A stretch of DNA of 48,436 bases from a virus. The stretch covers positions 1-48,436 of the IMG/VR virus record IMGVR_UViG_3300036045_000021, one strand, 5' to 3'. The notes beneath the pieces were generated by a model. The model was not told the DNA's origin. It made no database searches and saw only the letters and a program-made list of their open reading frames with translations. Shown here piece by piece: positions 10,542-28,179 of this stretch; the stretch's first letter is position 1, and every line of letters starts with the position of its first letter. Both the position numbers and the translations under genes were made by a program.

Positions 10542-11563
10542 GGATCTCGCTAGGCCTTTCGTTGGGACGCGCGGCGCTCGGGACGGTAACAATCCCGACG
10601 CCGGCCCTGTACTTAGAGATCCGAAAGAACATCACGTTCTTTGCTGGCAACATGCGAATTCTCACGGGCACAAGCGTGCCCAATATCGCCATGGCGGCAG
10701 CACCTTCGGGTTCGCTCACGTTCGCGAATAATCCGCCGGCCATCGAGGTCAATTGTGTGGACGTCTCGGGCGGGACGGCGCTCGGGCAGGCCAAGGTAGA
10801 CGTGCTGTATGACGGCGTTGTGAGCATGGCCGCAGTCACGACGAGCGCGACGCTCGACCTGACCGGTGCCGGTGCGGGCGTGCGGCTTGTCTGCGGCACG
10901 GGCACGTACGCCACTAATCAGAGCTGGCGAAACAAGGTGGGCTCCTGGACGTCCACCGAAGGCAACTCGCGAGTATTCGAGCAAACGACCGGCGCGCAGT
11001 GCCCGAGCTACGTCAAGGTCGGCTCCGTCTGGCGCCTCGACTTTACAGCAACCGGCAGCGAACGGCTCGTATGCACAACAGCTGCTGTCGCGCAGCTGTT
11101 TCAAAATGCTAGCCCGTTCAACCTCTGGTTCCGCACCGCAACAGACAACGCCAATCAAGCGCGCGCCATCTTCGCCGTAGGCAACAGCGCCCAAGCGTCC
11201 AATGGCTCGAAACGCTTCGGCACCTCTACCACTGGCAACGGGCGCTGGACGTGCTCTGTGGTGACGGACGCTGCCGGCACCGACGGCGGCCCCTTCGAAT
11301 CAGGCGTCAACATCGACACCAACGACCACCTGTTATTGTGGCGGCACACCGGCTCAACCATCACGCTGGACGAAGATGGAGTGAACCTGATTAGCACGGC
11401 CAACACTCCTGGCACGACCAGCCCCAATCAGGCCGCCATTGCGGCGCGCCCGTCGAGTACGCACACCCAGTTTTACGACGGGAAGGTCGGCAGCATTCGC
11501 GTCGATGCCTCCGACCTGTCCTCAGATGTCCGGGCCGCTATCGCGGCTGCGTTTCCTGCCTGA
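10538..11563 (+). CDS. Lectin-like (LamG/concanavalin fold) phage adhesion protein
   Basis: A 341-residue protein translationally coupled to the tailspike by a GTGA overlap. The N-terminal ~130 residues look like a structural strand domain (SLGLSLGRAALG start). The C-terminal ~200 residues, with SKRFGTSTTGNGRWT, VNIDTNDHLLLWRHTG and a closing YDGKVGSIRVDAS, have the alternating strand pattern of concanavalin A-like/LamG lectin domains found in phage fibres. It probably decorates the fibre or binds carbohydrate. The 3' end overlaps the convergent sulfatase by 26 bases, leaving no room for a terminator between them. Confidence 0.65.
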   Translation: MRISLGLSLGRAALGTVTIPTPALYLEIRKNITFFAGNMRILTGTSVPNIAMAAAPSGSLTFANNPPAIEVNCVDVSGGTALGQAKVDVLYDGVVSMAAVTTSATLDLTGAGAGVRLVCGTGTYATNQSWRNKVGSWTSTEGNSRVFEQTTGAQCPSYVKVGSVWRLDFTATGSERLVCTTAAVAQLFQNASPFNLWFRTATDNANQARAIFAVGNSAQASNGSKRFGTSTTGNGRWTCSVVTDAAGTDGGPFESGVNIDTNDHLLLWRHTGSTITLDEDGVNLISTANTPGTTSPNQAAIAARPSSTHTQFYDGKVGSIRVDASDLSSDVRAAIAAAFPA

Positions 11564-13088
11564 GCCGCTCGGCCAAAGCGGCTTGTGTGGCTGCAGGTAG
11601 CAGGTGCCAGGTGTTGGTGACCTGGTCCGGGTCAGTCTTTGAATCATGCCATTCGCGCTCTCCGGTCGAATATTCGACGTACAAGCCGTCCGGGCCTCGT
11701 AGAGCTCGGTAGCTTGGCGGGCCGCCCGCTTCGGCGCCCTCGACGGCATCCGGATCGTCGGGTTGGTCCACGGCCGAAGCCCGATGCTCGAGCAGCGCAT
11801 GCGTGCGCCACTCAGTAGGCTGGTTGCCCTTGAGCCAGGGCACCAGTGAACGGCCGTCACCGGGCAACGTCTCGGCGCCACCGAGCTCGGTGAACGTCGG
11901 GCAAAGGTCAACGTTTTGTGTGATTGCTTGAACGGTCGAACCAGCGGCAACGCCGGGACCGACCACGATAAGAGGGACATGCACATCCGTGTCGTAAGGA
12001 GTGCGCTTGCCCGGTAGCAGGCTGCGCTCTCCCATGTGGTAGCCGTTGTCACTGGTGAAAACGATGCACGTGTTTTCGGCGATGCCTAACTCTTCGATCT
12101 GCGCACGCAAGGCACCGATTGCTTCGTCGATGGCCTGTACAGCGCGAACTCGCTGACGGAATGCCGTGTCTATGGCGGTAATGTTGCCGTCCGTCAGCGG
12201 CGGCACAGCGCGGAGCCATGCCGGATCGGTTGCCGAAGCCCGAACGCCGAATGCTGCGGTCCGCGGGTAGACGGTATCCGCATGCACGGCAGCGTGCCGC
12301 TTGGCCGCGATGTAAGGCTTGTGCGGCGCGAACGTCGAGAGCTGCACGAAAAACGGTGTTCGCGCCGTCGAGACAATCTCGCCAGCGATTCCCGCGAGCA
12401 CGTCGGTGATGTAATCCTCGGGCTCGGTGCCGTAGTGCACAACCTCGCCGTTGCGGCTGAGATCGTAGTTGTAGGCGCCGTAGGCGTAACCTGCGACGTG
12501 CCAGTCGGACCAGCCGCGCTGCGGCCTGTTCTTCGTGGGCTCGTAGCCGTTGATCCACTTTCCGAGTAGCGCTGTGTGATAGCCTGAGGCCTGCAGCGCA
12601 GTCGCGAACGTAGCGTCCTCGTGGTCGCCCGTTTGCCATGCGGCGAGCCCGCCTTCCGGGCCGATGTTCGCCCATACGCCGCTCGAATGAGGATGCAATC
12701 CGGTAAACAGCGTGGCGCGGCTAGGGCAGCACAGCGAATTGCTGACGAAGTAGTTTTCGAAGGTGACGCCATCCGCCTGCAGGCGCTTCACTTCGGGCAT
12801 GTAAGGCAGCAAGGTCCAGGTCAGATCGTCGGCAAGGATGAGGATAATATTCGGCGGTTTCGCGGGTGGCGACGGTGGCGTCGGCCCACCGCCGCTCCCT
12901 TCGGCTTGGGTAGCTTCCCGCCACTCTGGCGCCGGCTCAGTGGGCTCTGTAGGCTCTTGCGGCTCTCGGTCTGAGAACGCAGCCGGGACCGGATCAAGCA
13001 CCGAAGCAGTCAAGCCGCTGGGTTCGGCTGGTTCGACGCCGCAGCCGAGCGCCAGTGCGGCAAACAAGATTCGTTGTACGATAGCCAT
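11538..13088 (-). CDS. Lipoprotein sulfatase (formylglycine-dependent) carried as phage cargo
   Basis: A 516-residue type I sulfatase. It starts with a lipoprotein signal (hydrophobic FAALALGC, lipid-accepting Cys16), followed by a Pro/Glu linker to ~75. The catalytic domain shows ILADD (metal ligands D87, D88), the sulfatase signature CCPSRATLFTG with Cys120 as the formylglycine site (C-x-P-S-R), GKW and SDNGYHMGE. The family hydrolyses sulfate esters of polysaccharides and needs a host formylglycine-generating enzyme. AGGAG precedes the ATG. It is transcribed against the phage operon. Combined with its own signal peptide this suggests a gene expressed in the lysogen, not a virion part; the substrate is unknown. 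Confidence 0.92.
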   Translation of the reverse strand: MAIVQRILFAALALGCGVEPAEPSGLTASVLDPVPAAFSDREPQEPTEPTEPAPEWREATQAEGSGGGPTPPSPPAKPPNIILILADDLTWTLLPYMPEVKRLQADGVTFENYFVSNSLCCPSRATLFTGLHPHSSGVWANIGPEGGLAAWQTGDHEDATFATALQASGYHTALLGKWINGYEPTKNRPQRGWSDWHVAGYAYGAYNYDLSRNGEVVHYGTEPEDYITDVLAGIAGEIVSTARTPFFVQLSTFAPHKPYIAAKRHAAVHADTVYPRTAAFGVRASATDPAWLRAVPPLTDGNITAIDTAFRQRVRAVQAIDEAIGALRAQIEELGIAENTCIVFTSDNGYHMGERSLLPGKRTPYDTDVHVPLIVVGPGVAAGSTVQAITQNVDLCPTFTELGGAETLPGDGRSLVPWLKGNQPTEWRTHALLEHRASAVDQPDDPDAVEGAEAGGPPSYRALRGPDGLYVEYSTGEREWHDSKTDPDQVTNTWHLLPAATQAALAERLRQETQPR

Positions 13089-13510: not shown

Positions 13511-15102
13511 ACGCCAAGCTCGCGCCCCTGCATACCCCGCAGGGCATCGCGCAGCGAGCCGAGGCGGAGCGGCGCAAGGAGATCGATGCCGCCGCCAAGC
13601 GAGGCATCCGCCTGCGCTTCGACAGCGCTGGTAATCCGCTGCTCAGCGCCGCCAGCCTGCAAGACTCGATGTATGGCGGCGAGCTGCCGCTGATGGAGCA
13701 AAACCGCCGGTACTTCGGGCGCTCTCTCACGCCCGAGCACATCGAGCTAGCCATCCGCTCCGCTGATCTCGGGTTCATGCGGGACCTGACCGATCTGGAG
13801 TACGAGACTCTGCACATCGATCCGAGCTTTTCATCCGTCGTGAACAAACGAATGCGTGCGATGGCCAGCGTCCCTGCGCAGGTTTTGCCGGCAGTCGGCG
13901 ATGGCCTCGACGAGACGAAAGCAAAGTTCTACGCGGATGTCGTGCGCCAGCAGCTCGCATGGGTCCCGAACCTGCGCCTCCAAATCCGTAGACTCAACTG
14001 GGCCCACTGCCACGGTCGCGCGGCGCTCGAGAAAGTCTGGCGCGAGAACCCGTCAGGCAGCCAGGTGCGCTGGCGCATCGACTCGCTCAACTGGATCCAT
14101 CCTCGAAGGTTGAGCTTTGGTCCGGAACGCGAGCTCCGGGTGCGCGACGACATGTTCGCGGGCGCCGGCTTTGAGAGGCGAGGGCTCGAGCTCAGGAGCG
14201 TGCCGTTCAAGTTTGTGAGCTTCACGCCCCAGGACTTCGACGACTACCCGGAGCGCGAAGGCTTTGGACCCCGTGCTCTCTATTTCTCGTTCTTCAAGCG
14301 CTTTGGATGGCGTGAACGCATGATCCTGCTCGAGGTGTTCGGTAAGCCCTGGAGGATCGTGCGGATGCTCGAGGGTGCTCAGGGCGTGCAGCGCGAGGAC
14401 CTCGACGAGGCGGGCGAAGCGGCTGACGCCATGGGCGCCAACGCAACGGGTGTAATGCCGCCGGGCGTAGATGCCGAACTCATCAGTCCCGATCAGTACG
14501 CCGGGCAAATCCACAAGGACGTCGCGGCCGAGTGCAACGACGAGATCAGCAAGCTGGTACTTGGCACGACGCGCACGACCGACGCGAAGCCGGGAGCGCT
14601 CGGATCCGCCGGTGACGAGGTTGGGCAGGAGGAACAGAGCGGCGTTTTCGCGGCGGACGGCTGGGACCTTTCGGACCTGCTCACCGAGCAACTCGCGGCC
14701 GACATCATCGCCCTCAACTTCGGAGCCGAAGCGCTAGATCACTGTCCGCGCATCGAGCTTCGCTACGAGCTCAAGGCGAGCCGAGGCGTCGAGATCGAAC
14801 GAACCGTGAAGGTGTTCGGGATGGGGCAGCCGCTCAAGAAGAGCGAGTTCTACGAGCGCGTGGGCTTCACAGCGCCCGAGCCCGACGACGAAGTCGTGCA
14901 GCAGCAGGTGGCGCCGGCGATGCCCGGGGGCTCTTCAGGTCTCGGCGATTTGGGCCTACCGGGGGGCGACGAAGCGAGCCCGCTCGGCGACGGCGGCGCG
15001 TCGCTGCCCGACCCGGAGACCTTCGCCGACGCCACGGACCCGCTCGTATTGGTGCGCGCTGCACGCGTGCTGCAGCTGCTCGACCGTAGCCGCACCCGAT
15101 GA
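13507..15102 (+). CDS. Mu gp29-like portal protein (DUF935)
   Basis: A ~531-residue portal subunit: twelve copies form the ring through which DNA enters and the tail attaches. The central region matches DUF935/Mu gp29 features: FMRDLTDLEYETLHIDPSFS, VVNKRMRAMASVPAQVLP, a Trp-rich WAHCHGRAALEKVW strand, and ERMILLEVFGKPWRI. Another typical stretch is LVLGTTRTTDAK..GALGS. The C-terminal ~70 residues are a Gly/Pro/Asp-rich tail. GTG 13507 is preferred: GGAGG at 13497-13501 has good spacing and the start overlaps the previous stop. GTG 13495 in the same frame is the alternative. It is followed by the MuF-type gene with an ATGA overlap, as in Mu-like phages. Confidence 0.92.
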   Translation: MNAKLAPLHTPQGIAQRAEAERRKEIDAAAKRGIRLRFDSAGNPLLSAASLQDSMYGGELPLMEQNRRYFGRSLTPEHIELAIRSADLGFMRDLTDLEYETLHIDPSFSSVVNKRMRAMASVPAQVLPAVGDGLDETKAKFYADVVRQQLAWVPNLRLQIRRLNWAHCHGRAALEKVWRENPSGSQVRWRIDSLNWIHPRRLSFGPERELRVRDDMFAGAGFERRGLELRSVPFKFVSFTPQDFDDYPEREGFGPRALYFSFFKRFGWRERMILLEVFGKPWRIVRMLEGAQGVQREDLDEAGEAADAMGANATGVMPPGVDAELISPDQYAGQIHKDVAAECNDEISKLVLGTTRTTDAKPGALGSAGDEVGQEEQSGVFAADGWDLSDLLTEQLAADIIALNFGAEALDHCPRIELRYELKASRGVEIERTVKVFGMGQPLKKSEFYERVGFTAPEPDDEVVQQQVAPAMPGGSSGLGDLGLPGGDEASPLGDGGASLPDPETFADATDPLVLVRAARVLQLLDRSRTR

Positions 15103-17762
15103 CGGCCACCCAAGCCCTGGCTGAGCTCACCGAGCTCGACCGCTTCCTGGTGTCTGCGGCGCATCGCCAACAGCTGGGCGTGCATATCTGCCTGGCCGAG
15201 CAGCCCGAGACCGTGAACGGCTCGCCCGAGGACCTGGTGGTTACGGCCGTCGCAGACGGGGCCCTCATCACGGGCGGCTGGGCCGACGAGCTCGTCGCGG
15301 CGCTCGAAGGCAAGGACAGTATCGCTGAGATCAGTCTCGCCATCCGGCGCGCCGGCGATGCTTTTGACCTCGAGCCGTTTGCGCGGCTGGCCGAGGAGCA
15401 GATCCTGAGAGGGCTCATGCTCGGTGCGCTGGACTCGCAATGGGAGCGGGAGAACGATCTAGAGGTCGCGCCAGCGCGCTTCCGCGACGAGGGCAAAGCG
15501 CCGGCTGTTTACGCACCGTTCACGCGCGCGATCGAAGTGTTCGAGCAAAAGCAGGTTCTCAGCCCGCTCGCCTTCGGAAAGCTGCAGGAGGCGGCGAAGC
15601 AGAAGGCTTTCACGGTCGCGGGGCTCGCCAAGCAGGAGCTACTCGCCGCCGCGCACGCTGAGCTGCTGAAGCGCATCCGTGAGGGGCAGAAGCTCGAAGG
15701 CGGCCCGAACCTGCGCGACTTCAAGCGCTTCGCCAAGGAGCGGCTCGAGAGCGCGGGCTGGACGCCGGCAAACAAGAGCCACGTAGAAACGATCTACCGA
15801 ACCCAAATCGTCGGCGCCTACCAGGGCGGCCGAGTGCTCGAGATGAGCCAGCCTAGCGTGCTGGCGGCGATGCCGTTCTGGCAGATTCGTGGCGTGACCG
15901 ATGCTCGGCAGCGCGCGACGCATCGCAAAGCGCACGGAATCGTGCTGCCGGCGAACCACCCGTTTTGGCGCACGGCCTATCCGCCTTTTGGTTTCGCGTG
16001 TCGCTGTAAAGCGGTAGCGCGAACAGCATCCTATCTCAAAAATAACGCCATCACCCCGGGACCGGTCCCGACCGGCCTCCCCGATCCCGGCTTCGAGAGC
16101 GGGACTCGCGCGCTGATCCAGGTACCGCCGCAGCTGCTGCAAAGGCCCGCCGCGAACGTACCGGTACCGGTACCAGTGCCGGCGCCACCCGCCCTGGCGC
16201 CGGTCGTTCGACTTCCGGCTTCGCTCCCGCCGCCGCCTCCCGCGCCGCCGCCACTGCCGCCGCCGCGGGTCCCCGTCCAGGAACTCGACGTGCTGGCGAA
16301 GAAGGTCGCCGAGGCCACCGGCTCGAACCCCGGAGGGGTGTACGTCGGCTCGGACGGTGTGAAGCGCTACGTGAAGTTCTACGAGGACAGCGCGCAGGCT
16401 GCCGGCGAGCATCTGGCCAACAGCATCTACCGGGACCTCGGCCTGGCGGGGCCCGAGAGCGTTCTGTTCGTGCACGAAGGCAAGCTTGCTTACGCGAGCG
16501 AGATCTTGCCGGAGGTCAAGACGCTCGGCTCCAAGCTCACTCCAGAACTCGCCAAGAAAGCACTCGACGGATTCGCGGCCGACGTGCTGATGGCCAACTG
16601 GGATGCCGCCGGCCTCGTCCTCGACAATATGCTGGTCGATGCGAAGGGGCGCATCATCCGCATCGACAACGGCGCCGCGTTTCTGACCCGCGCCCAGGGC
16701 GCCCGCAAGCCACTCGAGCTGCTCGGGCGAGTGACGGAGTGGGATACGTTCTTCTCGGTCGCCAAAAACCCAGGCTATGCGCGGCTCGCTGCGGAGGCTG
16801 GTATCACCGGCCCGGCAGGCCTAGCGGCAAGCATCAAGCGCGGCGTGACCAAGATCGAAAAGCTGCGCGACGCGTCCGGCGGCTGGCGCGCGTACGTCCA
16901 GGCGCGTGCGCAGGGCCTGAGCATCGCGGACCGCGAGCAGATCATCGGCATGCTCGAGGCGCGCACGACGTTCCTGCGGCGCAAGGTCGCCGAGCTCGAG
17001 TCGGCTGCGGTCAGGCCCCGGACTCGCAAGATCGCGAAGCTCGAGGCGGCGCCGCTGCCGAAGGAACGAGAGCGCGCCGTAGTAGACCTGGACCACGGCG
17101 AATACCAGAGAAAGGCGGCCGAGAAGCTACAGCTCCTCACCGACCGAGAGCGCGTCGCCATCACCGAGTATACGGGAGGCGACTATTCGCGGATACGCGA
17201 CGCGCAGTTTCTCACTCCTGAGCAGTGGCAGGACAAATGGAGCAGAGAGCTCAAACGAGCGCTCGCGCCGGAAGAGTATTTCCAGGCCCGCTTGACCGCC
17301 GACCAGATCGAGCAGAGCTTCACCAAACTGGCCGGCGCCGTAGGTGTCGAGGCGCAGGTAACCGAGGTGTTCCGCGGCATGAGACTGCCCGCCGAGATGG
17401 TCGAGGAGCTCATTAATGCCCGCGTCGTGGAGTGGCAGGCCATGACGAGTTCGAGCTGGAACCCCAGCGTCGCGGAGGACTTCAGTCGCCCCTACAGCTC
17501 AGACCAGGTCGGCGTGGTGTTCGTCATGCGGACCATGGGCAGCAAGACGGCGGGCCGGCGCATGGCAATCGAGCCCGTCTCTGCCGTGCATGGCGAAGGG
17601 GAGGTGCTGCTGCAACGGGGCACCCAGTATCGCATCGTCGACGTCAAAGCCGACAGCGACGCTGAGCGCGTGCTGAGCAACGGTCAGCGCCGCGTGATTA
17701 TCTACTGCGAAGAGCTAGCGCCTGGCAGCCGTCTGCCCGAGACCGTCAAACTCGCGGCGTGA
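15099..17762 (+). CDS. MuF minor head protein fused to kinase-like and ADP-ribosyltransferase domains
   Basis: An 887-residue three-part protein. Residues ~1-305 are the Mu F/SPP1 gp7-like minor head protein, with the conserved end around THRKAHGIVLP, HPFWRTAYPPFGFACRC. A Pro-rich linker follows (~345-400). Residues ~405-560 look like a HipA/PI3-4-kinase-like fold: VYVGSDGVKRYVKF with Lys426, LDNMLVD (D509, N510) and RIDNGAA (D523). The C-terminus (~690-870) is an ADP-ribosyltransferase with the R-S-E triad: FRGM (R759), TSSSW (784-786) and EGEVLLQRG (E833, E835, the ExE motif). MuF proteins enter the cell or sit in the capsid with DNA, and MuF-toxin fusions are a known polymorphic toxin class. 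Targets unknown. Confidence 0.9.
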   Translation: MTATQALAELTELDRFLVSAAHRQQLGVHICLAEQPETVNGSPEDLVVTAVADGALITGGWADELVAALEGKDSIAEISLAIRRAGDAFDLEPFARLAEEQILRGLMLGALDSQWERENDLEVAPARFRDEGKAPAVYAPFTRAIEVFEQKQVLSPLAFGKLQEAAKQKAFTVAGLAKQELLAAAHAELLKRIREGQKLEGGPNLRDFKRFAKERLESAGWTPANKSHVETIYRTQIVGAYQGGRVLEMSQPSVLAAMPFWQIRGVTDARQRATHRKAHGIVLPANHPFWRTAYPPFGFACRCKAVARTASYLKNNAITPGPVPTGLPDPGFESGTRALIQVPPQLLQRPAANVPVPVPVPAPPALAPVVRLPASLPPPPPAPPPLPPPRVPVQELDVLAKKVAEATGSNPGGVYVGSDGVKRYVKFYEDSAQAAGEHLANSIYRDLGLAGPESVLFVHEGKLAYASEILPEVKTLGSKLTPELAKKALDGFAADVLMANWDAAGLVLDNMLVDAKGRIIRIDNGAAFLTRAQGARKPLELLGRVTEWDTFFSVAKNPGYARLAAEAGITGPAGLAASIKRGVTKIEKLRDASGGWRAYVQARAQGLSIADREQIIGMLEARTTFLRRKVAELESAAVRPRTRKIAKLEAAPLPKERERAVVDLDHGEYQRKAAEKLQLLTDRERVAITEYTGGDYSRIRDAQFLTPEQWQDKWSRELKRALAPEEYFQARLTADQIEQSFTKLAGAVGVEAQVTEVFRGMRLPAEMVEELINARVVEWQAMTSSSWNPSVAEDFSRPYSSDQVGVVFVMRTMGSKTAGRRMAIEPVSAVHGEGEVLLQRGTQYRIVDVKADSDAERVLSNGQRRVIIYCEELAPGSRLPETVKLAA

Positions 17763-21527: not shown

Positions 21528-22064
21528 ATGGGAAAGACCGCCAAGACCGAGACCGAGACCGAGACTACGAGCGACCAGCCGAACGAGCCGCCGGCTACCC
21601 GAGACGCGCCCCAGGCCAACGCCGAGGACGCGCGCATCGCGCAGCAGCGCGCCCGCGCTCTCGAGGACAGCAGCGCCGAGAAGGCGCAAAAGCTAGCTCT
21701 CGCAGAAGCCAAGGTCCACGGGCTGGAGGGTGAGCTAACGAAGGCACGGGAGCGGATTGCCGAGCTCGAGCAGCAAGTGGAGCAGCTCAGCGTCGATGTC
21801 GCCAAGGCCACGACTGCCGCCAAGAATGCAGGCGCGAAGATCGATGGGCTCCCTGAAGGAGCCGTGCAGCTGAACGAATCCGTCACCTTCTTCTGCGCTC
21901 ACACGCGCCAGAGGCTCAGCGTCAAGGCCCGGGATGTGCTGTTTGCGGCGAAGTCCGACGACGAGGTGGCGGACCTGCAGCGCCAGCTGGGCCAGCAGGC
22001 GACCGTGCACCGGGTGAGCCGGAAGGACCTCGAGCAGCTGTCGGCTGAAGGGTTCATCGGCTGA
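21528..22064 (+). CDS. Coiled-coil head-region protein
   Basis: This 178-residue protein has an acidic, Thr/Glu-rich N-terminus, a long heptad-patterned coiled coil (about residues 35-95, LEGELTKARERIAELEQQVEQL), and a C-terminal strand/helix domain (residues ~110-178). It follows the major capsid gene and precedes the DUF1320-like connector. Similar small proteins with a coil and a compact domain occur at this position in several Mu-like phages, but the function is unclear. A role in head completion is likely from position only. Confidence 0.65.
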   Translation: MGKTAKTETETETTSDQPNEPPATRDAPQANAEDARIAQQRARALEDSSAEKAQKLALAEAKVHGLEGELTKARERIAELEQQVEQLSVDVAKATTAAKNAGAKIDGLPEGAVQLNESVTFFCAHTRQRLSVKARDVLFAAKSDDEVADLQRQLGQQATVHRVSRKDLEQLSAEGFIG

Positions 22065-22071
22065 GGGGTTG

Positions 22072-22542
22072 ATGCCCGCACCAGCTCTCATCACCCGCGC
22101 AGATCTGGAGGAGCGATTCCCGCCGCAGCACGTGCGTGGTGTCTTTCGGGACGATGGCGCGAGCGAACCGGGCCCGCGACTCGCGGTGGCCTGCGCGGTA
22201 GCAACACGCCAGGCCGAGGCAGTCCTGCTGAAGGCCTGGTCGCTGGAGCAGATGGCGGGTCTGGTTGCCGAGGACGAGGCAATCAAAAGCGCGCTGTGCG
22301 ACCTGGCCATGGCCGAAGGCGTCAAGGGAAAGCCGGAGTGGATGGGCGAAGGGCGGCCCTACGCCACGCTGAGGAAGGACGCGCTGACGACGCTCGAAAT
22401 GCTCGCCAAGGCGGAGCTCAGAACGCGCGCCGAGCGAACCGTCGGCGCCAATCCTAACCGCCGCGGGAACGTTGGCAGCGGTGACTGCCGGGCCTTCACG
22501 TTCGCGCCGGCGCGCGACGGATCGCGGCGTGGTGGCTACTGA
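22072..22542 (+). CDS. Mu gp36-like head-completion protein (DUF1320)
   Basis: A 156-residue helical protein with a DUF1320-like start (ALITRADLEERFPPQHV) and a characteristic RLAVACAVATRQAEAVLLKAW helix, followed by ALCDLAMAEG. It corresponds to Mu gp36, a connector protein between the portal and neck. ATG 22072 follows GAGGGG closely. The C-terminal ~35 residues are a basic Gly/Arg-rich tail. It overlaps the next gene by one base (TGATG), the usual pairing with the gpG-like protein. Confidence 0.75.
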   Translation: MPAPALITRADLEERFPPQHVRGVFRDDGASEPGPRLAVACAVATRQAEAVLLKAWSLEQMAGLVAEDEAIKSALCDLAMAEGVKGKPEWMGEGRPYATLRKDALTTLEMLAKAELRTRAERTVGANPNRRGNVGSGDCRAFTFAPARDGSRRGGY

Positions 22543-22967
22543 TGGCGCTCTTCGAGATCCAGGCGGACACCAACCTCGAAGCGGTTCTACGCGACGTGCG
22601 AGGACGTGGGCAGAGCGTGGACAGGCTCTTGCCGACTGTCGCGGAAATGCTCGTGGGCGGGGTTCTGGACGTCATCGAAGCGGAAGGTCCAGGTTGGACG
22701 CCGCTTGCTGACTCGACGCTGCGTGCCCGGCGCAAAGCGGGGCGAGGAGCCAAAATCCTGCAGGACACTGGAGTGGCCGCGGCAACGATCGGGCAGGGCT
22801 TCGGCGCTGACTACGCTGAAGCTTTCGCGGGCGTTGACTACCTCGTCTACCACGCGAGTGCGGCGCCCAGGACGGTTATCCCGCGGCGTAACCCCTTCGA
22901 CCTCGGGCCGTTTGAGGGCCCGCTACTGAACGAGGTGGCGGAGCTGCTGCTGGAGCAGGTGCCCTAG
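22542..22967 (+). CDS. Mu gpG-like tail completion/virion morphogenesis protein
   Basis: A 141-residue protein matching Phage_tail_S/Mu gpG features: WTPLADSTLRARRKAGRGAK, the ILQDTG turn typical of the family, and a C-terminal YLVYHASAAP, VIPRRNPFDLG end. The family joins head to tail or completes the neck. It ends just before the reverse-strand operon at 23046, so the structural operon is interrupted here. Confidence 0.8.
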   Translation: MALFEIQADTNLEAVLRDVRGRGQSVDRLLPTVAEMLVGGVLDVIEAEGPGWTPLADSTLRARRKAGRGAKILQDTGVAAATIGQGFGADYAEAFAGVDYLVYHASAAPRTVIPRRNPFDLGPFEGPLLNEVAELLLEQVP

Positions 22968-22990
22968 CTTTCGCGCGCTCGCGCTGCGTA

Positions 22991-23024
22991 GCACCTGACG
23001 TGCGTCGGGCACATCGTCAGGCGC
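22991..23024. terminator. Stem-loop between forward structural operon and reverse operon
   Basis: CCTGACG (22994-23000) and CGTCAGG (23015-23021) form a perfect 7-bp stem, extended by two pairs past one mismatch, with a 14-nt loop. It lies between two convergent transcription units. There is no U-run, so it is a weak terminator candidate or a transcript-end stabiliser. Confidence 0.35.
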
Positions 23025-23045
23025 CGGTAGGCCGCGGCGAGGTTG

Positions 23046-23321
23046 TCATTGTGAGCGCTTTGCTGCTTCGCGTCGAGATGCGTCACGTGCTGCGTAGTAC
23101 TTCGCGTGCTCGCGGCACAGTGTAGCGAGGCCGCCGCCAACCATACGCTTGGCGACAGGTTTACCGCACACGACGCAGCGCTTTGCTCGCTTCAGCTTGG
23201 CCGTTCGTGCGCGGGCCGCTTTGCGATGCCGGTCGCCGCATTCCGCGCAACGGGACCGGCCCGGCTCGCGCTGAGCCGGGCAGTCCTTGCAGCGGGGGTC
23301 TTGAGGCGGTCGCTGGGCCAA
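23046..23321 (-). CDS. Small zinc-ribbon protein at the end of the reverse operon
   Basis: A 91-residue basic protein with several Cys pairs (CKDC, CAEC, CVVC and a C/H pair LCREH), suggesting two zinc-binding modules. It starts at TTG 23321 only 6 bases after the stop of the ParB-like gene, which makes it the last gene of the operon. Similar Cys-rich proteins are common next to phage DNA-modification or nuclease genes. A role in nucleic-acid contact is inferred. ATG alternatives give much shorter products. Confidence 0.6.
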   Translation of the reverse strand: MAQRPPQDPRCKDCPAQREPGRSRCAECGDRHRKAARARTAKLKRAKRCVVCGKPVAKRMVGGGLATLCREHAKYYAARDASRREAAKRSQ

Positions 23322-23327
23322 GGTGTC

Positions 23328-23951
23328 CTATTCCTCTGGTTCCCACGCTTCGGAAAAGTCTCGGTGCGCAAACAGCTCAGCTAGCCCGGTGATCTGTTTT
23401 AGTCGGCGGAGCTCTTCGGAGTCCATGCCTAGTTCTTCCTGGATCTTCTCGTCGCGTAGCCCGGACTGGTACATCTCGCGTACGAGTTCGCTCATGGCTT
23501 CGACACGATGCTCGCCGCGTGCTCGATTGTGCTCCACGGTGGCGGCAATTCGCCCGATACGATCGGCGCGCTCGGGTCGAATCTGTGTGACCGGGAGACG
23601 ACCGCGTACGCTCGCGCGCACTTCCGGCACATCTGTGCCGACACGACGTCGGTGGAAGCCGTCCACTACCACCCATCCTTCACCCTCCGCATTGGCGACG
23701 ATCGGCATCGTGTAGCCGTTGGCGTCCACAGAGTGCGCCAGAAGGCGCATTTCTGGAGGAGCTACGGCGTTTGGGTTGTAGTCGTTCGCATGCAACTGCT
23801 CGGCGCGCACCCATCGCACAAAGTCCACGGGGTGGTGTTTGAAAGGAGAGACTTCGTGCAACGCCGCACGCACTTCGTTGAGTGCATCGATCCTCTCCTC
23901 CTCGGGCAATGCTGCGAGAGCTTCGACCAGAGACTGTATATGTTGCTTCAT
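23328..23951 (-). CDS. ParB/IbrB-like protein
   Basis: A 207-residue protein with a ParB/Srx-type N-terminal domain: the VRAEQLHANDYNPNAV strand segment, a helix MRLLAHSVDANGYTMPIV and the WVVVDGFHRRRV motif in the place of the ParB GERRxRA box (about residues 45-110). The C-terminal region (EMYQSGLRDEKIQEELGMDSEELRRL) looks like an HTH. Together with the adjacent PAPS-reductase-like gene it forms an IbrB/IbrA-type pair, known from E. coli prophages as transcription co-activators. It could also be a DNA-binding or NTPase-linked component. GGGAGG precedes ATG 23951. Confidence 0.85.
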   Translation of the reverse strand: MKQHIQSLVEALAALPEEERIDALNEVRAALHEVSPFKHHPVDFVRWVRAEQLHANDYNPNAVAPPEMRLLAHSVDANGYTMPIVANAEGEGWVVVDGFHRRRVGTDVPEVRASVRGRLPVTQIRPERADRIGRIAATVEHNRARGEHRVEAMSELVREMYQSGLRDEKIQEELGMDSEELRRLKQITGLAELFAHRDFSEAWEPEE

Positions 23952-23994
23952 GTCGCCTCCCGCTTGCTGGCCAGGATCACGCGACCGTCGCCGG

Positions 23995-25242
23995 TTACAC
24001 GCCCCATTGACTCCTCCGCTTCCTCATTATCTTGCGGTACCGCGCGAAGGCCGTCTCCGAGCTGCGTTGCTGAGAAAAGCCCAGGCGCCGACACATCCGG
24101 TCGTTGAGCAAAATGGTCTTTGCAACACGGCGCCACGTCGGCGCCTTGCGCGCCGCCTCCACTTCGTGCGGAGCCTCGTCCAACATCTCCATGTTGCGGT
24201 GCGTGCGCCACCACTGGCGAAACACGGCGATCTTATTCTCGTAGTGCTCACGCTCGAACTCAGGCAGCGAGTCGAGCAGGAAACGAACGTAGCTCTCCCA
24301 CGTCTGGTGTGGGTCAGGGAGCGATACCCTTCCGATTCCTAGGACGTTGCCGCGCTGTCCAGCGTAGAGAGCGCCGTAACGAGCCCCGGACACGCGAGCT
24401 ACCACCTTGGCCCATGTCTCCGGCTCGATGACGTGCCACATCGCCAGGCCGCGGCGCTGGTCGTCGCCGTACGGCTGACAGATGCGCTGCTGGTGGATTG
24501 ACAGCCCCGCCTTGTACATCAGATCGTAGAGCGGGTTGTGCGGGAGGCCGGTCTTGCCGTGGTAGGTCCAGATGTCCTCGGTCCGCCAGTCGTAGATCGG
24601 ATAGACGTTGAAGAGCGAGGCGCCTTTCCACGCCGTCCACGGCTTACCCTCGAGGCGGCTCTTGCGTGCTCGCACGATGGCGCGCCAACGGTTGAGGCTC
24701 TCGTCCGTCCGGATGCCCACGAGGCAGGCCGTCGCCTCGCCCTGCGAGTACCAGTGGCCGAAGTGGTCAATGAACTCCTCGAATTCCTGGGCCGCGCGTT
24801 CGCCATTCGATCGCGTCGATGGCTCCTTGTAGAACGGGTAGGCGCCCGGGTCCGTGATGGCCTCGGGCGGCGGCTGCCGAACCCAGCGGTCCTTTGCCTC
24901 AGGGTCCCACGACACCCAGTAGGGCTGCATCATGCTCACCGCGTTTCGGAGGCGGAGAGGCAGTGCGACCCAGTGAGGAACGATCACGTCCGCGTAGAGT
25001 CGAAACATCTCCCTAACGTGGCTGATGGTGCACGCGTATTGCGCCTCGAGATCGAGGTAGAGCACGCCGATCTTCCGCCCGCGCTTGCGCGCCTCCAAGC
25101 ATGCGAGGTGCATCATCACGCCGGAGTCCTTGCCGCTGGGGCCAGACAGGTAGATGCGCGGGAAGGAGTCGAACGTCCAGGCGATGCGCCGCTGCGCGGC
25201 CGTGAGCACGTCTATGCCGATTGGTCGCTTTTGGTGAGCCAT
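23995..25242 (-). CDS. PAPS-reductase-like / IbrA-like protein
   Basis: A 415-residue protein of the PAPS reductase/adenine-nucleotide alpha-hydrolase superfamily, with a DUF3440-like organisation (IbrA). The ATP-binding PP-loop is seen as SGPSGKDSG (residues 33-41), followed by a long helix and the IGVLYLDLEAQY strand. The segment LFNVYPIYDWRTEDIW, then YHGKTGLPHNPLYDLMYKAG, is characteristic of this family. The C-terminal ~120 residues are a helical domain (FLLDSLPEFEREHYENKIAVF). No Cys cluster of assimilatory reductases is visible, so sulfate reduction is unlikely; nucleotide activation is more plausible. It overlaps the upstream gene by 31 bases. Confidence 0.85.
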   Translation of the reverse strand: MAHQKRPIGIDVLTAAQRRIAWTFDSFPRIYLSGPSGKDSGVMMHLACLEARKRGRKIGVLYLDLEAQYACTISHVREMFRLYADVIVPHWVALPLRLRNAVSMMQPYWVSWDPEAKDRWVRQPPPEAITDPGAYPFYKEPSTRSNGERAAQEFEEFIDHFGHWYSQGEATACLVGIRTDESLNRWRAIVRARKSRLEGKPWTAWKGASLFNVYPIYDWRTEDIWTYHGKTGLPHNPLYDLMYKAGLSIHQQRICQPYGDDQRRGLAMWHVIEPETWAKVVARVSGARYGALYAGQRGNVLGIGRVSLPDPHQTWESYVRFLLDSLPEFEREHYENKIAVFRQWWRTHRNMEMLDEAPHEVEAARKAPTWRRVAKTILLNDRMCRRLGFSQQRSSETAFARYRKIMRKRRSQWGV

Positions 25243-25817
25243 GACCAGGCCTCCTGCTCCGACAATCGCGTCAGCGCGTCAACCTGCACACCAACAAAGC
25301 GGCGCCGCCCTTGCTCTACGACCTCGTAGACGCCGGGCGGTAGGCGGTACAGGCGTTCGCCATCGAACGCGACAAATGCCACGCGCTCAGGCGTGCCGAG
25401 ACCCGTTACGCGCGCAACCCATGTCGTGCCGTCGCGATCCTCCGGCAGCGCGAGGCGAGCGGCGGTATCTCCGCCACCGACTCGAGCGAGCGCTTCGAAC
25501 GGCTCGAGGGCGACGCGCTTGCCGCCTTCGATGGCGACGAATTCGCGCACGACGCGGCGCTTGCTGGGTTTCCCGCGGCAGCGCTGGACCTCGTACAGGT
25601 TGCCATCCCGGAGTGGGAAGCATGCGACGCGACCATAGATGTTGCCGCGCATCGATCGCGATGCTTGGCTCCAGTCATTCTTCGGGTCGATAAACTTGCG
25701 GGCCAGGCCGTACCTGGGATCAGGGCCGAGTATCTCGGCCACCCACGGGCGGACTGGCTCGCCGCCGTGGTAGTGGCCGTCGATCTCGACCTTCAGAATG
25801 TGGAGCATGCCGGTCAT
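25212..25817 (-). CDS. Unknown protein of the IbrAB-like operon
   Basis: A 201-residue protein starting MTGMLHILKVEIDGHYHGGE. It contains GLARKFIDPKNDW, GKPSKRRVVREFVAIEGGKRV, and two repeated short strand blocks (WVARVTG and RVAFVAFDGERLYRLPPGVYEV). It appears to be an all-beta domain with a basic middle. I do not recognise the family. ATG 25817 has AGGAGG at proper spacing, while ATG 25823 is too close. The end overlaps the IbrA-like start, so the two are translationally linked and likely act together. Confidence 0.7.
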   Translation of the reverse strand: MTGMLHILKVEIDGHYHGGEPVRPWVAEILGPDPRYGLARKFIDPKNDWSQASRSMRGNIYGRVACFPLRDGNLYEVQRCRGKPSKRRVVREFVAIEGGKRVALEPFEALARVGGGDTAARLALPEDRDGTTWVARVTGLGTPERVAFVAFDGERLYRLPPGVYEVVEQGRRRFVGVQVDALTRLSEQEAWSWLTKSDQSA

Positions 25818-25819
25818 GC

Positions 25820-26002
25820 TCATTCCTCCTTCAAGAAAAGCTCCTGCGCCCGCTCCTTCACGCGCGCGAGCTCGTCGTCGGGAACATCCGACAGGTCGGT
25901 CTCGATGACGGCGTAGCGCCCGTCGCGGTAGAGCGTCACTTCGATCGGGTGTTCCCCCGTCGCGTCCTCGTAATACACGGTCACGGTTCGAGAGGTGGTC
26001 AT
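25820..26002 (-). CDS. Small acidic operon protein
   Basis: This 60-residue protein has a strand-rich N-terminus (RTVTVYYEDATGEHPIEVTL) and a charged helical C-terminus (DELARVKERAQELFLKEE). Its start overlaps the upstream gene stop (ATGA), and its 3' end lies directly next to the next start, so it is clearly within the operon. No function is recognised; it may be a regulator or a subunit of the system. Confidence 0.6.
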   Translation of the reverse strand: MTTSRTVTVYYEDATGEHPIEVTLYRDGRYAVIETDLSDVPDDELARVKERAQELFLKEE

Positions 26003-26604
26003 TTGCTCTGCTCCGCCTTCCAGCCCGCGTAGCCGATTCGCTCGAGCCGGCGCGCCTCGTCGAAGTAATCTTGGTCTTCGGCTGCCTCGATCGCGTCCTG
26101 GTAGTCTTGGTAGCTGGTTCCGCTCTTGGCTTCTTCGGCGAAGCGCTTGAGCCGCGCGATGGTCTGCGGCCGGTCATAACTCTTGGTGATCTGCAATTCC
26201 GCGCGCGCGGCCCAGAACTGGCTCGAGCCATCGCGGAACAGGAGCAAGACGCGAGACCCGTCCCGACTCTCGACCCGGCTCACACGGTCGTCGTAGTGGG
26301 TGCGTCCGCGCTCGATGCGACCAGCGACGTAGTACGACTTGCCCTTGTAAATCGCGCGCCCAGCGACTACGGCCTCCTCGCCAGGTGCTTCGCGAGTCGG
26401 ACGCTCCGAGCCTGGCGCAGCGTCGCCACCAGCTCCGCCACTCAGCTTGGCAGCCAAGGCTTCGGCCGTCTCTCGCTTGCCCGTCCACCAGGACTTTCGG
26501 TCAGCATCCCACTTGCAGCCCGCCGCGCGAATCGCGTCCTTGATCGGGTAGGTATTACCGACGAGGTAGTGACGGCGGCCTTCGCTTTGAATTGTAATGG
26601 TCAT
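25999..26604 (-). CDS. Operon protein with a DUF5710-like N-terminal domain
   Basis: A 201-residue protein. The first ~55 residues match the small domain with TYPIKDAIRAAGCKWDADRK, followed by SWWTG, frequent in phage and plasmid proteins (DUF5710-like, often joined to primase or helicase-type partners). After a linker there is a second strand-rich domain (~95-160: AIYKGKSYYVAGRIERG, SRVLLLFRDGSS), and a helical tail with ERIGYAGWKAEQ. ATG 26604 begins the recognisable domain. A longer reading from TTG 26790 would pass through low-complexity repeats and is less likely. Confidence 0.7.
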   Translation of the reverse strand: MTITIQSEGRRHYLVGNTYPIKDAIRAAGCKWDADRKSWWTGKRETAEALAAKLSGGAGGDAAPGSERPTREAPGEEAVVAGRAIYKGKSYYVAGRIERGRTHYDDRVSRVESRDGSRVLLLFRDGSSQFWAARAELQITKSYDRPQTIARLKRFAEEAKSGTSYQDYQDAIEAAEDQDYFDEARRLERIGYAGWKAEQSK

Positions 26605-26610
26605 AGGTCT

Positions 26611-26661
26611 CGCTTTCTGCTCGCTTTCTGCTCGCTTTCTGCTTCTGCTTCTGCTTCTGCT
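26611..26661 (-). repeat. Short tandem repeats in the leader of the operon
   Basis: On the forward strand CGCTTTCTGCT occurs three times in tandem (26611-26643, 11 bp each), then TCTGCT three times (26644-26661). In the transcribed strand this is a purine-rich AGCAGAAAGCG/AGCAGA array. It lies between the small first ORF and the 201-residue gene, close to that gene's ribosome-binding region. Repeat-number change could alter leader length or translation; this is inference. Confidence 0.75.
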
Positions 26662-26774
26662 CACAGCCCGCGGCGCCAGTCGTTGCCAGCCGAGTCCGCG
26701 TCGTGGGCGATGGTGACAGTCTCGTTTTGGGCGATGCTCTGCTGGATGGCGTGTTCGGCGTTGTTCATGCCCAT
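26661..26774 (-). CDS. Candidate 37-residue leader gene of the operon
   Basis: A short open frame (MGMNNAEHAIQQSIAQNETV and on to a WRRGL end) with biased, coding-like third positions. It could start at ATG 26774, where an AAGGA sits 8 bases upstream, or at ATG 26768, which coincides with the predicted transcription start and would make a leaderless message. Stop TGA lies immediately before the purine-rich repeats. Function unknown. It could be a true small protein or a translated leader. Confidence 0.4.
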   Translation of the reverse strand: MGMNNAEHAIQQSIAQNETVTIAHDADSAGNDWRRGL

Positions 26775-26810
26775 ACCATACGTCCTTCAATGGGGCCCGT
26801 CAATGGGGCC
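26775..26810 (-). promoter_or_regulatory. Promoter and direct repeats driving the reverse operon
   Basis: On the reverse strand TTGACG (26798-26803) and TATGGT (26775-26780) are exactly 17 bp apart: 5 of 6 and 4 of 6 consensus matches. The predicted start falls on or near the A of ATG 26768. TCAATGGGGCC is repeated at 26787-26797 and 26800-26810 (13 bp period), overlapping the -35 and spacer, as an operator for a repressor would. This is the best promoter in the window. Confidence 0.55.
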
Positions 26811-26866
26811 GCGCGAATAAACCGCCGCAGCAGGCCACGGTCGCCACTCGCCCCTAAGCTTCTGCC

Positions 26867-27805
26867 ATGAGCGCCACGGTCCAGAACGCCAGAGCCATCG
26901 AAGCGGCTCTCCAGCCGCTGATGGGCACCGCGGCCTCAGGCAGCCTCACCGTGCGCTCAACCGGATTGAACGGGACCGTGCCCTACGGATCGGCGCTGAT
27001 ACCCATCCTGCGAGGCGGGCTCGAGGAGGAGGCTACGGCGTTCGTCCCCAAAAACCCGGCCACAGCGAGCGGGGCGTGGCCGATCGTCCAAGCCGGCACC
27101 ACGGTGCCCGTCGTGGCCGTGCAGGGAGGTGCCGTCGGCAATACGCCGCCAGGCACCCAGTACCGCTGGAACGAGCCATTGGAGGGCATCGAGAGCGTCA
27201 GCGTGAGCGCGGCGGGTCTCGCTGGCGGAGCGGCGAGCACGGCGTACGCGGCGCTCAAGCAGCTCCGGCACTACAAGGCTCTCACCCAGAATTTGCTGGA
27301 AGACTTTCTTCGCGCCTCGCTCGGACAGTTCCCGGCGGGGCTACTGGCCTGGGACAGCACGCAGCCACTTGATGGGCCGATGGCAGCGCGCCCGGCACCT
27401 CGCGCCGCTCGCGCCGGTCGCGGCAAGGTCCTCTTTAGGCACACGTGGATTCTGTTCTTGGTGAGCAGCAGGCTCGATAGCGAAGCCGAGCGGCGCCGCG
27501 AGGGCGACACGCTGCGCGACGATGTCATCGAGACCCTGCTCGATACGACCAGCGCTCGTGGGCTACGCGTGTCCACGGATCCCGGCGCGGAGATCCTCGA
27601 CGCTCGGATTCATGCGGTTACTCCGACCTCCTACGTTGACCTCGTTCGATTCGCCACGACGGTGACGGTCCAGCATCGCCCGCAAGGCGCGACGTACAAC
27701 AATTGGCTGCGCACGCGTCTCCGGCAGCAGACGGCTGCACAGGGCATCTACCCGCCCATCCATTTACCGGACGTGACGATCCCGATGCCGCCGGGTGGTT
27801 CGTGA
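26867..27805 (+). CDS. Mu gp37-like tail/neck protein
   Basis: A 312-residue protein starting the tail gene block, directly before the gp38-like and sheath genes, the slot of Mu gp37 (DUF1834 type). The N-terminal half contains GSALIPILRGGLEEEATAFVP and WNEPLEGIESVSVSAAGLAGG. The C-terminal half has HTWILFLVSSRLDSEAERRREG and IEILD..IHAVTP-like strands with a Pro-rich end. It probably forms a tail-terminator or neck part. The start lies 92 bases from the divergent operon, with no strong SD. Confidence 0.65.
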   Translation: MSATVQNARAIEAALQPLMGTAASGSLTVRSTGLNGTVPYGSALIPILRGGLEEEATAFVPKNPATASGAWPIVQAGTTVPVVAVQGGAVGNTPPGTQYRWNEPLEGIESVSVSAAGLAGGAASTAYAALKQLRHYKALTQNLLEDFLRASLGQFPAGLLAWDSTQPLDGPMAARPAPRAARAGRGKVLFRHTWILFLVSSRLDSEAERRREGDTLRDDVIETLLDTTSARGLRVSTDPGAEILDARIHAVTPTSYVDLVRFATTVTVQHRPQGATYNNWLRTRLRQQTAAQGIYPPIHLPDVTIPMPPGGS

Positions 27806-27855
27806 TGCGCTCGATGGGTCACGACGCGCGCTAGCGCTCACACCACACGGGCTTC

Positions 27856-28179
27856 ATGCCCGACCAGCCGAAGTTTGCGCGCTTCGTGTCGCCCGTCCCG
27901 GGGCGACTCGTTTCGCGTTGGGATGTCCCCGGTAGCTATCTCGGGGCGCGCGTCACGACCACGGCAGAGCGGCTCGACGGAGCGCCGCCCATCCTCTGGG
28001 ACGAGGACGCGGTAATCCCGCTGACCGAGCAGTTCTGCGCGCGTTACGGCCGTGAGCTGCACAACGCGTTTCGGCACGGCGACCTCGAGGAGCGCACGGC
28101 TGACGACTGGACCGCGTGGCTCGCTCACCAGCAGGAGCTCGAGGCTCCTGAACCCACCCAGGTGGAGGAGGAGAACTAA
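27856..28179 (+). CDS. Mu gp38-like small tail protein (DUF2635-like)
   Basis: A 107-residue protein with the DUF2635-type theme of a SPVPGRLV start, a proline/glycine loop, VIPLTEQFCARYGRELHNAFRHGDL, and an acidic tail (QVEEEN). Mu gp38 proteins precede the sheath gene and have no well-defined role. ATG 27856 lacks a clear SD. The stop overlaps the sheath ATG by one base (TAATG), so the two are coupled. Confidence 0.65.
   Translation: MPDQPKFARFVSPVPGRLVSRWDVPGSYLGARVTTTAERLDGAPPILWDEDAVIPLTEQFCARYGRELHNAFRHGDLEERTADDWTAWLAHQQELEAPEPTQVEEEN

Follow-up and report, generated by a model that had tools for sequence, protein, structure and literature searches.

What does an IbrAB-like group of genes do in the middle of the structural genes of a phage, and which of its genes belong together? 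The question is raised by the virus record IMGVR_UViG_3300036045_000021 (IMG/VR), of which the whole stretch of 48,436 bp was analysed (hereafter the window), and in which seven open reading frames (ORFs), named g1 to g7 in their minus-strand transcription order (26774 to 23046), sit between two virion genes of a phage with a tail sheath. An earlier note on this DNA had proposed here a multi-gene system built around an IbrA/IbrB pair. Our analysis shows an obligate gene linkage between g4, IbrA (g5) and IbrB (g6): the IbrAB pair is already known, the third part g4 is new, and the 'pair' of many phages is, as judged from the third gene standing beside it in dozens of unrelated phages, a three-part system. 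The three genes in the window are the following.

25212–25817, minus strand: g4, 201 amino acids (aa), the IbrAB partner, with two beta domains each ending in a helix
23995–25242, minus strand: g5, IbrA, with a PP-loop/PAPS (3′-phosphoadenosine 5′-phosphosulfate)-reductase-like domain and DUF3440 (Pfam, PHROG)
23328–23951, minus strand: g6, IbrB, with a ParB/Srx-like domain (DGFHRR, EHNRARG) and a C-terminal helix-turn-helix (HTH)-like segment (phrog_2159)

The pair itself is readily assigned. Indeed, g5, a PP-loop protein of the DUF3440/COG3969 type, matches DUF3440 (PF11922, E = 3e-33, above the cut-off), PAPS_reduct (PF01507, 2e-13) and phrog_2302 (1e-83), with 45–54% identity to the IbrA proteins of the best-matching phages and plasmids and 45–47% to those of Escherichia coli phage PhiR5_2 and of enterobacterial plasmids, and g6 matches phrog_2159 (E = 6e-64) together with, at weak E-values, ParB/Spo0J structures. 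IbrB is adjacent to IbrA in the window and in nearly all relatives, and the two families and their arrangement, a DUF3440 PP-loop protein followed by a ParB-like one, are those of IbrA/IbrB in the E. coli ECOR-9 prophage islands and of YbdN/YbdM in K-12; the IbrAB identity first proposed for the locus thus holds. IbrAB occurs in 201 phage records, 602 plasmids and at least 592 confirmed viral stretches, and IbrA (DUF3440) was found in 7 of 398 sampled genomes of Pseudomonadota (the phylum of an Emcibacter metagenome-assembled genome), with IbrB in all seven. No third IbrAB component is mentioned in the available excerpts of the papers found.

The family of g4 is visible only through alignment-based and IbrA-anchored searches: as a single-protein query, g4 gave no match in the phage or viral collections, it has no match in Pfam, and its sole PHROG match is phrog_26647, a model without functional annotation that spans a single g4 domain only and is matched, in all, by 21 of 30 aligned g4 proteins. 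The two IbrA loci closest to that of the window (75% and 69% identity) each have a g4 homologue 5′ of IbrA, a one-domain homologue precedes IbrA in the Chlorobiaceae phage CV-1-33, and an iterated, IbrA-anchored profile recovered g4 in 33 of 54 loci of the order IbrA-IbrB and in 0 of 33 of the order IbrB-x-IbrA, near-identical contigs being counted among these loci. The reverse scan used a g4-only query alignment without IbrA (a subset of 11 sequences, the 30-sequence alignment being too diverse for a collection scan) and returned 44 viral loci, counting the contigs that supplied the query; IbrA lies directly downstream in 44 of the 44, IbrB is present in 43, the other locus being cut by a contig end, and X, an alternative third gene described below, occurs in none. 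The expectation of the earlier note that partners are conserved across IbrAB loci is therefore borne out by this neighbourhood analysis for g4, but not for g1 and g3, for which no counterpart was found.

In most loci the reading frames of g4 and ibrA overlap by about 20–30 bp, and the window protein carries the marks of the family, with a beta domain (WVAxIxG...DYxxAN...RG...YEV) encoded directly upstream of ibrA, usually in an overlapping frame. Between g4, IbrA and IbrB, pairwise distances are correlated (r 0.58–0.74, 0 of 5000 permutations), as joint inheritance of the whole module would predict. Among the 398 Pseudomonadota genomes, g4 was found in one, beside IbrA, this genome being one of the seven with DUF3440. 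The window g4 is internally duplicated (two domain copies, probability 97%, E = 8e-11), and its AlphaFold2 model, built from 30 sequences (pLDDT 91.8), shows two beta domains with a helix closing each; against BFVD it gave single-domain likeness only, to unnamed viral proteins. In locus L077 (4090–5002), two g4 genes with a 75-aa ORF between them stand ahead of ibrA, a parallel to the duplicated g4 domain in the clade of the window.

Most of the loci without g4 carry another gene at this place. X is a conserved protein of about 125 aa, encoded directly upstream of IbrA in most g4-less loci (e.g., L004, L005, L042 to L096), with the consensus ...RxYHxYxxWEE...HNLS...NRxAWLGHAACC...; apart from one chance-level match, it fell into no Pfam or PHROG family. 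Searched alone, X identified 79 scanned loci, with IbrA in 79 and IbrB in 77 of them, and no locus with both g4 and X was found. We asked whether X is a distant homologue of g4 and rejected this (hhalign 0.2%, unrelated). X deserves a family of its own. Taken together, the g4 loci and the X loci make most IbrAB loci of our sample three-part, this sample being the best 80 hits of an alignment query headed by the IbrA of the window, near-identical contigs included. The identity of the third part is tracked by the IbrA tree: every row with g4 belongs to a single supported clade of 36 rows (31 with g4 and 5 with neither gene), and the three third-part labels change 5 times along the tree, compared with a mean of 31 after shuffling. 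Note that this tree was made by a quick method, with two long rows flagged. A third small family (FYxEDLGL...KHGxRxYxDLWSQN) stands upstream of ibrA in L053 (2767–3147) and L060 (4586–5020), both in the g4 clade. The small neighbour genes of the Streptococcus, Lactobacillus and Fusobacterium loci were also compared as g4 candidates and are not g4.

Does the system extend beyond three genes in the window? On the IbrA tree, the window groups with L008, L009, L019 and L099 in a clade of five that has full support and oddities in common, namely an altered PP-loop (GPSGKDS), the duplicated g4 domain and added accessories. The loop of the window protein reads SGPSGKDS; 69 of 79 IbrA proteins read SFS[GA]GKDS. 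Relative to the E. coli IbrAB loci examined, which have neither g4 nor X, the window thus differs by a g4 before IbrA, by this loop and by added DUF5710 and Zn-ribbon genes. A DUF5710-type protein is encoded 5′ of g4 in three of the five clade members (window, L009 and L099), and in L009 and L099 it carries a fused C-terminal Zn ribbon, whereas in the window the Zn ribbon is encoded apart, by g7; this fused versus split arrangement ties g2 and g7 weakly together. In the retrieved IbrAB loci we found no homologue of g3 and no stand-alone counterpart of g7, and, by visual inspection and family search alone, none of g1 in the other loci. A conserved seven-gene system was therefore rejected, and the larger system with extra partners survives in part, since g4 recurs, as do g2 and the Zn ribbon in three of the five closest loci, but g1 and g3 are local. 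Other clade members carry different additions: a GNAT acetyltransferase is encoded between IbrA and IbrB in L008 (7209–7577) and L019 (6209–6580), and in L008 an N6/N4 DNA methylase gene overlaps g4. Mu Mom is a DNA-modifying enzyme of GNAT fold. GNAT-type genes (matched, annotated or similar-looking) also occur between ibrA and ibrB in L112 (5399–5860) and L228 (2270–2720).

Which chemistry could such a module perform? The predicted structure of IbrA (pLDDT 86.9) has the PAPS-reductase fold, with 2oq2, 6vpu and 1sur as best Foldseek matches (probability 1.00), and also resembles human FAD synthase (TM 0.67 on the target) and CysD. Phage 'cysH' is commonly reported as an auxiliary sulfur metabolism gene (e.g., in the part consulted of PMC10434257), and g5 receives the same automatic PF01507 annotation as these PAPS-reductase genes. 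Under this literature label, g5 would boost sulfate assimilation, with the other genes as passengers, and the presence of a sulfatase gene in the same phage would be in line with it. However, the C-terminal ECGLH motif with the catalytic cysteine is absent from 79 of 79 aligned IbrA proteins, g5 is a protein of 415 aa with DUF3440 and 13–19% identity to true PAPS reductases, the ATP-type SGGKDS loop is kept in sister proteins, and IbrA is obligately linked to a ParB-like protein and to g4 or X. We therefore rejected the auxiliary metabolic gene as highly improbable.

A PAPS-reductase-fold enzyme is likewise used in DNA phosphorothioation (DndC/SspD), alongside a protein of the ParB superfamily, DndB (according to an excerpt of PMC12839542). 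The window is alike in fold and in its ParB-superfamily protein but has neither the Dnd/Ssp partners nor the matching cysteines: g5 gave no match to the NCBIfam DndC model at E ≤ 0.01, its match to the PADLOC DndC model (E = 1e-4) covers 67 residues only, that of g6 in PADLOC is marginal, and family searches found no DndD/DndE or SspB/SspC families among the cassette proteins. DndC has a cluster of cysteines, unlike the conserved cysteines of IbrA (C173, C255 and C384 in window numbering), which are scattered. Membership in Dnd/Ssp was rejected on these missing motifs and partners.

Type IV-B CRISPR offers another likeness, since its CysH-like protein (CasCysH) is, as IbrA, a PAPS-reductase-like PP-loop protein without the catalytic cysteine, and nucleic-acid adenylylation has been argued from this missing cysteine (in the part consulted of a review, PMC8175902). 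In the phage contig L057 (3094–7602), IbrA-IbrB occupies the CysH position of a type IV-B-like CRISPR locus, between Csf2 (TIGR03115, 2e-17) and Csf3 (TIGR03116, 8e-11), both below the curated cut-offs, with Csf1 and Cas11 assigned by position only; the IbrA of L057 nests in the g4 clade, although L057 has no g4. The window has the ParB-like partner instead of a Csf complex, and a tblastn search with the L057 csf proteins found no csf genes in it, although distant homologues could escape such a search. These likenesses bear on a role in anti-phage defence or superinfection exclusion, in which IbrA would act like DndC or the type IV-B CysH and protect the lysogen. The weak DndC similarity, the embedding of IbrAB between Csf2 and Csf3 and the moron-like insertion with its own promoter-like site would agree with it, but no nuclease, toxin or other effector is recognised in the cassette, PADLOC called no system for it, and the DndC-type cysteines are absent; we consider this role unlikely.

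We favour, at a probability of about 0.4, an ATP-dependent adenylating complex acting on DNA over a role in sulfate reduction, given the fold, the missing catalytic cysteines and the neighbours (DNA methylase, GNAT, recombination genes and, in a single phage, type IV CRISPR). The cassette would then encode a three-subunit IbrAB complex plus accessories. IbrB, a truncated ParB-like NTP-dependent nucleotide-binding protein with an HTH, would sit on DNA, and IbrA, a PP-loop enzyme of the PAPS-reductase/FAD-synthase/ATP-sulfurylase fold, would react at the ATP alpha-phosphate and adenylate a substrate at the DNA. The double beta-domain protein g4, whose coupled frame immediately precedes that of IbrA, may be a specificity or assembly subunit, a role that the unrelated X would fill in other lineages, and the DUF5710 protein and Zn ribbon, or the GNAT of the sister loci, would be lineage-specific add-ons. 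Most likely, DNA, or a nucleotide or protein bound to it, would be chemically altered in an ATP-activated reaction, so as to protect the phage genome or alter its expression.

Several observations weigh against such an adenylating complex. The lost canonical SGG in the PP-loop of the window could, by its sequence, mean altered or lost ATP hydrolysis. Against the PDB folds, g4 gave 0 matches at E ≤ 0.001, and without a solved structural relative its role is a guess. The IbrAB loci examined from E. coli, Streptococcus and mycobacteria have neither g4 nor X, so that the third part is not universal. In addition, the excerpts of the literature found report no enzymatic, binding or modification results for these proteins, the single known genetic phenotype of IbrAB in them is transcriptional, and some IbrAB loci lie beside antirepressors.

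The last two points lead to the view that IbrA and IbrB (with g4) are transcription co-activators that switch on prophage or host genes, i.e., a lysogenic-conversion regulator without DNA chemistry. IbrAB is described as activating prophage eib genes in E. coli ECOR-9 (Sandt 2002, as cited in an excerpt of PMC10434257, ref 30), which is the sole published IbrAB phenotype there; the HTH-like end of IbrB, the occurrence of antirepressor or Cro genes next to IbrAB in phages of E. coli, Streptococcus and Lactobacillus, and a promoter-like site of the cassette's own, oriented against the late genes, agree with regulation. It leaves the conserved PP-loop enzyme core unexplained, however, and the genes that recur next to the g4/X loci are not regulators but belong to replication, recombination or the terminase, including DnaB helicase, SF2 helicase, exonuclease and recombinase-like genes (assigned by reading the sequences). 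We regard a pure co-activator as doubtful. Going further with the adenylating complex, g4/X-IbrAB might be an undescribed and very widespread ATP-dependent DNA hypermodification system, paired with methylase or GNAT in sister loci, the enzyme of which type IV CRISPR loci (L057) would have recruited to a guided complex; this extension is tentative.

The three-part view matters in practice, as IbrAB occurs in hundreds of phage and plasmid genomes, where annotations often call it 'PAPS reductase' and it is taken as a sign of sulfur metabolism. An obligate third family in many phages (g4 or X, both absent from Pfam) alters the set of genes to clone for a test, and may explain why the IbrAB pair alone resisted functional assignment. 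Moreover, isolated phages with the module were identified (Pseudomonas phage Amjad_SA for the X type, Chlorobiaceae phage CV-1-33 for the g4 type), so that virion DNA is open to direct analysis, and through the link to the type IV-B CysH a pending question on CRISPR can be put to the test in phages.

How is the module set in its phage? The other features of the cassette and its flanks are the following.

26867–27805, plus strand: right flank, syntenic neck/tail gene ('gp37-like' of the earlier note), 44–48% identical to the gpG neighbour in L103–L105
26775–26803, minus strand: sigma-70-like promoter TTGACG-17-TATGGT, directly 5′ of the operon (promoter scan)
26661–26774, minus strand: g1, 37-aa ORF, doubtful gene or leader peptide (codon score 0.47)
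26605–26660, minus strand: leader separating g1 from g2, containing short GCAGAA / GCAGAAAGCGA repeats (sequence)
25999–26604, minus strand: g2, 201 aa, N-terminal DUF5710-like domain (Pfam DUF5710 E = 4e-4)
25820–26002, minus strand: g3, 60 aa, local (ORF and codon score)
23046–23321, minus strand: g7, 91-aa Zn-ribbon protein, TTG start (DZR E = 0.0017, below the cut-off)
22542–22967, plus strand: left flank, gpG-like neck/tail-completion gene (phrog_26), adjoining the homologue of the 26867 gene in L103, L104 and L105

The operon is real and has a promoter-like site at its head, which upholds the reverse-strand seven-ORF operon of the earlier note. The ORF calls give seven closely packed minus-strand ORFs, with overlaps of 4 bp (g2/g3) and 31 bp (g4/g5) and gaps of 2 bp (g3/g4), 43 bp (g5/g6) and 6 bp (g6/g7). 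With codon scoring trained on the phage's own structural genes, g1 to g6 score above zero in their own frame and three long opposite-strand ORFs below it. The score of g7 is slightly negative, so that its support is the CxxC...CxxC Zn-ribbon pattern and its spacing. In 6 kb (22000–28000), the single sigma-70-like site is the one at the cassette head, on the operon strand (shuffles mean 0.6). The ATG of g1 directly follows the −10 hexamer without a ribosome site, and its match to Toprim_2 is sub-threshold (E = 0.0095), which makes g1 doubtful as a gene. The family names first given are confirmed for g5 (PAPS-reductase/DUF3440) and g6 (ParB-like); DUF5710-like for g2 (20.4 bits, Pfam gathering cut-off 26.5) and double-Zn-ribbon-like for g7 are reached only below the cut-offs.

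The operon is an inserted cassette of the 'moron' type, self-contained with its own promoter-like site. In the contigs L103–L105, two of which look nearly identical, the gpG and gp37-like homologues lie side by side, separated by 24 or 206 bp against 3.9 kb in the window, so that about 3.7 kb is inserted here; these contigs are related to the window in the head-tail genes (major capsid protein 51–52% and sheath 71% identity). The insertion between the neck gene and the gp37-like gene thus stands through the empty site of relatives, but the name 'gp37-like' is syntenic only, as the gene had no match in the PHROG library. The patchy distribution, with the site empty in the three related contigs found, would also suit a selfish passenger, a mobile cassette kept through frequent transfer without stable benefit. 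The intact frames and the conserved coupling across dozens of divergent loci argue otherwise, and such a passenger seems very unlikely.

Two further genes of the phage were recorded. A second minus-strand gene (11538–13088) encodes a sulfatase (PF00884, 2e-45); its N-terminus resembles that of a lipoprotein, it contains the formylglycine-type motif CCPSR, and it is matched in only 25 phage records, all at less than 60% identity. On the plus strand, 15099–17762 encodes an 887-aa minor head protein like gpF of Mu, in which a stretch at the C-terminus resembles ADP-ribosyltransferases (PF03496; phrog_802, Alt-like).

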